Notes under the pieces: generated by a model
Seen by the model: the letters and a program-made list of their open reading frames with translations, nothing else
The model's database searches: none
What the model was told of the DNA's origin: nothing
Made by a program: the position numbers and the translations under genes
Shown here: positions 24,443 through 25,777 of the stretch, piece by piece
How the letters are laid out: each line of letters begins with the position of its first letter
Position numbering within the stretch: the first letter of the stretch is position 1
Assembly: GCF_000300005.1 (NCBI RefSeq)
Contig: NC_018691.1
Coordinates: 4,235,001 to 4,299,000 of the forward strand
Length of the DNA: 64,000 bases
Direction of reading: 5' to 3'
Source of the DNA: Alloalcanivorax dieselolei B5
GTDB lineage: Bacteria > Pseudomonadota > Gammaproteobacteria > Pseudomonadales > Alcanivoracaceae

Positions 24443-25777
24443 ATGAGTCACATACTGATCGTGGAAGACGAGCCCGTGATTCGCGGCGCGCTACGCAAAC
24501 TGCTGGAGCGGCATGATCACTCCGTGACGGAGGCGGAATCCGTGGAGCAGGCCCTGGAGAAAAGCCTGCATCAGTACGACCTGATCATCAGCGATCTGCG
24601 ATTACCGGGGGAGCCGGGCACGGCCCTGATCGAACAAGCCAACCCGACGCCGGTGCTGATCATGACCAGTTACGCCAGTCTGCGTTCGGCGGTGGACGCC
24701 ATGCGCCAGGGCGCGGTGGACTACATTCCCAAACCGTTCGATCACGAGGAAATGCTGCTGGCCGTGGAGCGGGTGCTGAAGGAAGGCCGGCTCAATCGCG
24801 GCAACCAGGCACTGCGCCGTGATATGGAACGCAGCTATCCGGTCAACGCCATGGTCGGTGAGTGTCAGGCCATGCGCGAGCTCAAACACCGCATCGCCCG
24901 GGTGGCGCCCACTGATACCCCGGTGCTGATCCTTGGGGAAGCCGGCACCGGCAAGGAACTGACCGCCCGCTCCATTCATGAACACAGTGACCGGGCCGGC
25001 GGCCCCTTGATTACCGTGCACTGCGCCTCCCTGCCGAAAACACTGCAACTGGATGATCTGTTCGGCAACGATGGCCAGCCCGGCCGCATTGAAGAAGCGG
25101 AAGGCGGCACCTTGTTTCTGGACGAAGTGGGCGAACTGTCCGGAGAAGCGCAGAGCCGGCTGCTGACGCTGCTGGAGCAAGGCGAGATCCATCGTCAGGA
25201 CTCCCTGTCCACGCGCCGGGTGGACGTGCGCATCCTGGCCAGCAGTCAGACCGATCTGCCCACCCGGGTCACCGAGGGCGGATTCCGCCGTGACCTTTAT
25301 TACCGGCTTAACGTGATGGAACTGGAAGTGCCGCCATTGCGGGCCCGCGAGCAGGATATCGAGGACCTGGCCAGCGCCCTCCTGGCCCGTGGCAGCGAGA
25401 AACTGCGGCGGCAGAACCTGTTTTTCACTCAGGAAGCGCTGGAGGCGATGCGTGGTTACAGCTGGCCGGGCAATGTGCGGGAGTTGGAAAACGTCATCGA
25501 GCGGGCCGTGATTCTCTCCGAGGAGGAAGCCATAGGCCCCGGTCAACTGGGCCTGAATCCGGATCGCGCGCCGCAACGCACCACCCGTGCCAGCCGCGCC
25601 AGCCTGGATCCCTCCGAGGATCTGTCGCTGGAAGACTACTTCACCCGCTTTGTCCTGGAAAACCAGGACAGCATGACCGAGACCGAGTTGGCCAATAAGC
25701 TCGGCATCAGCCGCAAAAGCCTGTGGGAGCGCCGCCAGCGCCTGGGCATTCCCCGTCGCAAGGGCGGCCGGCGCTGA
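24443..25777 (+). CDS. cbrB: NtrC-family response regulator CbrB, lacking the GAFTGA loop
   Basis: Response regulator of 444 residues controlling carbon/nitrogen utilisation. The receiver has E8/D9, phosphoacceptor D51 (IISDLRLPG), T75 and K97. The AAA+ domain has Walker A GEAGTGKE (165-172), Walker B GGTLFLDE (221-228) and FRRDLYYRL. The C-terminal HTH is [20 protein letters not shown], strongly CbrB-like. Between DLFG (205-208) and EAEGG (218-222) the sequence is NDGQPGRIE; the usual HEKGAFTGA sigma54-contact loop is absent with no frameshift. Regulators of this family without GAFTGA generally act on sigma70 promoters, so CbrB here may have changed mode. AAGGAAGG precedes the ATG. Confidence 0.92.
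   Translation: [444 protein letters not shown]

Follow-up and report, generated by a model that had tools for sequence, protein, structure and literature searches.

In Pseudomonas (P. putida and P. aeruginosa), CbrB is a sigmaN-dependent activator encoded in a cbrA-cbrB-A-rich RNA-pcnB locus, with a TGTTAC subsite (named F1 in P. putida) and an IHF-like site between enhancer and promoter (PMC6296734 for sigmaN dependence and F1). The GAFTGA motif in loop L1 of sigma54 enhancer-binding proteins has been reported to be essential (PMC3162934). NtrC and HupR of Rhodobacter capsulatus are NtrC-family regulators from which GAFTGA is deleted and which activate sigma70 promoters, and R. capsulatus NtrC must bind ATP but does not have to hydrolyse it, as stated in the passages of PMC10274813 and PMC3162934 that mention these proteins. 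Caulobacter NtrC has an eight-residue deletion in L1 that includes GAFTGA, and works at sigma70 promoters (PMC10274813). It requires Walker A and Walker B, whereas the hydrolysis residues of Alcanivoracaceae CbrB decay in several genera. TyrR, PhhR and VpsR are further AAA+ regulators without GAFTGA whose partner is sigma70; VpsR is reportedly ATP-independent, and the sensory domains and targets of these three proteins differ from those of CbrB. The R. capsulatus regulators serve another regulon than CbrB. To our knowledge, no stepwise intermediates with a corresponding conversion of the promoter at a single conserved target have been described for them.

GAFTGA-less activators that use sigma70 are already known, as isolated cases. 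What is new here is CbrB as a case, a graded series within one family, a promoter that was converted while its geometry stayed fixed, and a loss of Crc that accompanies these changes. No prior report of these was found in the open-access literature, in which no paper linking Alcanivorax with crcZ was found either, and in which Alcanivorax and CbrB are joined only by a metatranscriptome study.

The window, i.e. the whole stretch of 64,000 nucleotides that was analysed, is part of the complete 4,928,223-bp genome of Alloalcanivorax dieselolei B5. It contains cbrA, cbrB, an A-rich RNA gene and pcnB in the order expected of an orthologous locus:

21219-24140, + strand: CbrA, sensor kinase with an N-terminal multi-pass region, PAS, HisKA and HATPase domains (Pfam HisKA, HATPase_c, PAS)
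24443-25777, + strand: CbrB, NtrC-type response regulator without GAFTGA (Pfam Response_reg, Sigma54_activat, AAA_lid_14; synteny; alignment)
26059-26256, + strand: A-rich CrcZ-like RNA gene of about 200 nt, predicted start (AANAANAA motifs; fold)
26221-26250, + strand: terminator of the RNA gene, a hairpin with a 13-bp stem and a T run behind it (sequence scan)
26374-27759, + strand: pcnB, syntenic marker (synteny)

CbrA is 60% identical over its full length to the copy in an outgroup locus (L088). The cbrA-cbrB intergenic region contains a long, nearly perfect hairpin (24175-24264), and the Rfam matches of this region to animal miRNA families were rejected as chance matches to a strong hairpin. 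A 2022 review describes the CbrAB system as unique to Pseudomonadaceae (PMC8871633); in contrast, orthologous cbrA-cbrB-A-rich RNA-pcnB loci were found spread over much of the order.

The RNA gene has the several A-rich (AANAANAA/ARN) motifs, the terminator and the position 3' of cbrB that characterize a CrcZ-type decoy RNA. The window RNA carries 9 AANAANAA motifs and the RNAs of the lineages examined carry 8-13, compared with 1.2 in shuffled sequences; the fold z score of the window RNA gene is -3.2. The preliminary description had called this RNA CrcZ. An A-rich, syntenic, CrcZ-like RNA is present, but the name itself was not borne out, as CrcZ was unmatched at E<=1 in an Rfam search and Crc is absent from Alcanivoracaceae (see below).

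The cbrB frame is intact and encodes 444 amino acids. The protein has the REC phosphoacceptor Asp and a Fis-type HTH, its nearest relatives are the CbrB proteins of the order, and its receiver and HTH match those of Pseudomonas CbrB. The motifs of its AAA+ domain and its HTH were located by alignment:

24935-24958, + strand: Walker A, GEAGTGKE, retained (alignment)
25019-25021, + strand: His193, where PspF has the glutamate-switch Asn N64 (alignment; role of N64 from PMC4132715)
25067-25081, + strand: NDGQP, remnant of loop L1, where a 9-residue deletion has taken away GAFTGA (alignment)
25103-25129, + strand: Walker B, retained in the window CbrB and degenerate in some other Alcanivoracaceae genera (alignment)
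25232-25258, + strand: sensor I stretch ILASSQTDL, mostly ..AATHR[DN]L in outgroups (alignment)
25286-25306, + strand: arginine fingers, both Arg of FRRDLYYR retained (alignment)
25679-25747, + strand: Fis-type HTH, retained (mean between-genus identity 0.89 within Alcanivoracaceae)

The L1 segment has 5 residues instead of the 14 of canonical orthologs, i.e. nine fewer, and GAFTGA is missing. The preliminary description had placed a loss of about nine residues including GAFTGA at 25055-25096, an interval that encloses the deletion site, and had considered Walker A, Walker B, the arginine finger and the HTH to be preserved; the alignment agrees with it on all these points. It had not mentioned His193 or the altered sensor I stretch. 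Walker B contains LFLDEV. Among the hallmarks of a sigma54 enhancer-binding protein Walker A, Walker B and the arginine fingers are present and GAFTGA in L1 is not. CbrB is otherwise NtrC-like in its domains, its alignment and its predicted model (mean pLDDT 80), in which a short turn replaces L1 (block pLDDT about 84-91) and the AAA+ core superposes on the AAA+ domains of NtrC1, PspF, FleQ and FlrC at about 2 A. In PspF, the switch Asn is paired with the Glu of Walker B, and L1 conformation correlates with the state of this Asn (PMC4132715); in the window CbrB, this residue would therefore have no L1 loop to serve.

Orthologs were compared in 46 Alcanivoracaceae genomes from eight genera (Alloalcanivorax, Alcanivorax and six others), 45 of which had a CbrB match. 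A functional GAFTGA was found in none of these 45 proteins, whereas the outgroup families keep it (62 of the 65 other loci of the order). The full deletion is common to Alloalcanivorax (13/13 genomes) and Alcanivorax (17/17), and the full-deletion proteins form one clade in the tree (100/100); the intact copies in the same genus that the preliminary description had considered as a sign of error were found in none of the 13 genomes. In the other Alcanivoracaceae genera the GAFTGA position reads GAFAGA or GAFAAA, GAFEGA, DALPGA or SHLTGL, or is affected by partial deletions; Pro or Glu in place of the Thr is a typical trait of activators that no longer use sigma54 (PMC3162934). The switch position is Asn in all outgroups, His in Alloalcanivorax and in two Alcanivorax loci, and Gln in the remaining Alcanivorax loci. 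Walker B is damaged in several Alcanivoracaceae genera (DD, ED, ND, AE), and the Walker A lysine is kept throughout. Mean identity within Alcanivoracaceae was higher than among outgroups for REC (0.78 vs 0.56) and for the HTH (0.89 vs 0.78), and lower for the AAA+ domain (0.56 vs 0.66). Judged from these identities, constraint within Alcanivoracaceae is relaxed on the ATPase domain of CbrB only.

The promoter of the RNA gene has been replaced as well. When the 600 bp after cbrB were scanned for the sigma54 -24/-12 element (TGGCAY-N7-GC), it was found in 48 of the 50 outgroup loci that have GAFTGA and an A-rich RNA, and in 0/45 Alcanivoracaceae loci. Two Pseudomonas-like loci (L034 and L045) have both GAFTGA and a -24/-12 promoter, and both are gone in the window locus. 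All 45 Alcanivoracaceae loci have gained a -35/-10-like core, TTGC[AC]W-N17-CANNAT, which is present in 0/65 outgroup loci and for which the chance of occurrence in shuffled 300-bp stretches is about 0.0006 (0.06%). After weighting by genus, the invariant columns of this core across the eight genera are TTGC and CA..AT, the 17-bp spacer being mostly variable. These results support the earlier suggestion that CbrB does not act through sigma54. The elements upstream of the RNA gene in the window are:

25910-25926, + strand: CbrB upstream site TGTTACCTTACTACACA, centred near -141 and containing the F1 subsite TGTTAC (conserved in 45/45 Alcanivoracaceae loci)
25933-25949, + strand: further subsites GTAACA (25933-25938) and GTTACC (25944-25949) (sequence, comparison of loci)
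25990-26002, + strand: IHF-like site TAAGTTGCTGATT, differing from YAANNNNTTGATW at one position and centred near -63 (spacing conserved)
26023-26028, + strand: -35-like element TTGCAA (TTGC invariant across eight genera)
26046-26051, + strand: -10-like element CACTAT, 17 bp from the -35-like element (CA..AT invariant across eight genera)

Among the 11 Alcanivoracaceae loci in which distances were measured, the position of TGTTACC-N7-ACA is -141 or -130, a difference of about one helical turn, and the IHF-like site is at -63 in 10. In the outgroup the upstream site is at -139 to -156, and the IHF-like site, where found between enhancer and promoter, is at -51 to -62. As these distances are similar, enhancer, bend and start stayed put while the core promoter was replaced.

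The site TGTTACCTTACTACACA has no other exact copy in the genome, and a second CbrB target was rejected, since the four near-matches did not exceed a reversed-pattern control. The window and the three relatives closest to it share an additional TGTTAC subsite (25878-25883), about 32 bp upstream of the main site. Two loci from close relatives (L047 and L048) have repeat-like palindromic insertions (CGCTTGCAAGCAAGCTTCCCACAGCGG) between cbrB and the upstream site, which are absent from the window.

The -35/-10-like core resembles the E. coli consensus only weakly and was not listed by a generic promoter scan; we therefore infer the use of sigma70 from conservation. The core appears to be of the sigma70 type, other sigma70-family factors being possible, and its weakness would fit a promoter that requires an activator. 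Taken together, the sequence comparisons make it likely that CbrB is an enhancer-bound activator of a sigma70 promoter, as are R. capsulatus NtrC and HupR, and that it feeds an RNA decoy acting on Hfq only. What counts against a sigma70 activator is that sigma70 promoters are not usually activated from -141 by looping.

A sigma70 promoter could also be combined with an upstream-bound CbrB that is a repressor or an architectural factor, GAFTGA loss meaning that activation was lost altogether. There are precedents, as repression of sigma70 promoters by certain sigma54-type regulators is discussed in PMC6296734 and Caulobacter NtrC is an activator as well as a repressor, and the promoter could in principle work unaided. 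We nevertheless regard this alternative as unlikely: a site at -130/-141 with an IHF-like site kept before the core is the layout of a looping activator and not of a roadblock, the -35/-10 elements match the consensus weakly, and the HTH and the receiver are strongly constrained. It is much less probable still that CbrB keeps sigma54 through another contact, with TTGCA as the surviving -12 of a degenerate sigma54 promoter. Such a promoter should have GG at -24, which was absent in 45/45 Alcanivoracaceae loci at spacings N9-N11, and the invariant CA..AT exactly 17 bp downstream is foreign to sigma54 promoters; furthermore, GAFTGA is reported to be essential (PMC3162934) and the full-deletion clade has lost the glutamate-switch Asn as well. 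These points outweigh the invariance of TTGC(A), which is the usual -12 motif, and the presence of RpoN. A sequencing or assembly artefact, a strain-specific loss or a single-strain pseudogene is ruled out for practical purposes by the GAFTGA-less CbrB proteins with open frames of normal length in 45 Alcanivoracaceae genomes and by the HTH identity of 0.89 between genera.

For activation through sigma70, we propose the following course of events. In the common ancestor of the Alcanivoracaceae, a sigma70-family holoenzyme would have taken over the control of the CrcZ-like RNA from sigma54. CbrB would have retained its receiver, its DNA-binding domain, an upstream site located some 140 bp ahead of the RNA start and an IHF bend at about -63, and would still activate the RNA from the upstream site, contacting the sigma70-family polymerase through a DNA loop with IHF rather than remodelling sigma54 by GAFTGA. 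Freed from sigma54 duty, the AAA+ domain may have decayed stepwise: the Thr of GAFTGA would have been changed, then part of the loop lost, then the whole loop. The last step would have occurred in the ancestor of Alloalcanivorax and Alcanivorax, along with the loss of the switch Asn and sensor I, Walker A being kept. Given that Walker A is retained whereas the hydrolysis residues decay, CbrB probably depends more on ATP binding (for oligomerisation) than on hydrolysis, in line with what is reported of R. capsulatus NtrC.

The partner of a CrcZ-type decoy RNA, Crc, is missing from the genome. Genomes were searched with a P. aeruginosa Crc sequence, to which the copies in two Pseudomonas-like genomes are 86-87% identical. 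Crc was found at E<1e-30 in 65 of the 77 sampled genomes of the order and in none of the 46 Alcanivoracaceae genomes, in which the best matches were 24-30% identical; two of these matches, checked with family models, are exodeoxyribonuclease III. In an outgroup genome (G025, locus L226) the gene order is pyrE-crc-rph, and in the source genome (locus L224) pyrE directly adjoins rph:

C1:195873-196421, strand not given: pyrE, adjoining rph without crc between them (gene neighbourhood)

Hfq is present. The most economical reading is that the RNA most likely is an Hfq-only decoy: crc would have been deleted from between pyrE and rph in parallel with the changes in CbrB, and the RNA would then titrate Hfq alone. 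Loss of Crc as a general driver of the sigma switch was not supported, because two genomes do not fit: in G067 Crc was unmatched, yet GAFTGA and the sigma54 site are both retained at its CbrB locus (L023), and in G052 GAFTGA is lost and Crc is kept. That all these changes belong together, a stepwise sigma switch at fixed geometry, conversion of an AAA+ motor to an ATP-bound scaffold and loss of Crc yielding a Crc-free, sigma54-free CbrAB-RNA-Hfq circuit across the family, has in our estimation about an even chance of being correct.

The intermediates, together with the intact relatives outside the family, make it possible to study whether promoter or protein was the first to change when an activator abandoned sigma54; the case also allows asking whether IHF-aided DNA looping can serve sigma70. 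How the main oil-degrading marine bacteria control carbon use is seen anew, as Crc is absent. Furthermore, the RNA decoy may be expressed at a basal level, given that sigma70 promoters are not locked strictly.

GAFTGA loss in the 45 Alcanivoracaceae loci is one evolutionary event, and its independent replication comes from a single genome of another family, G052. Its locus (L041) has lost both GAFTGA and the sigma54 site and has kept TGTTACC and the cbrA-pcnB synteny; it groups in the tree with L094 and L095 (support 100/99), both of which keep GAFTGA and the sigma54 site. This independent co-loss, coming from one genome, is supportive, not conclusive. It was also observed that CbrB relatives of another family, encoded in L101 (G077) and L102 (G040), have lost GAFTGA, one of them with a damaged Walker B. 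Downstream of cbrB, these two loci showed no A-rich RNA, L101 offering just 208 bp, and both are therefore uninformative on the promoter.

RpoN is intact in the source genome and other activators of the same genome carry GAFTGA-type loops, which rules out RpoN loss as the cause of GAFTGA loss.

A second GAFTGA-less regulator is encoded in the same genome (C1:1741825-1742328; L009:1054-2502). It has a PAS-AAA+-Fis organization with a degenerate Walker A, GEPGSGRH, and its gene adjoins nitrilase-like and aldehyde-dehydrogenase-like genes.
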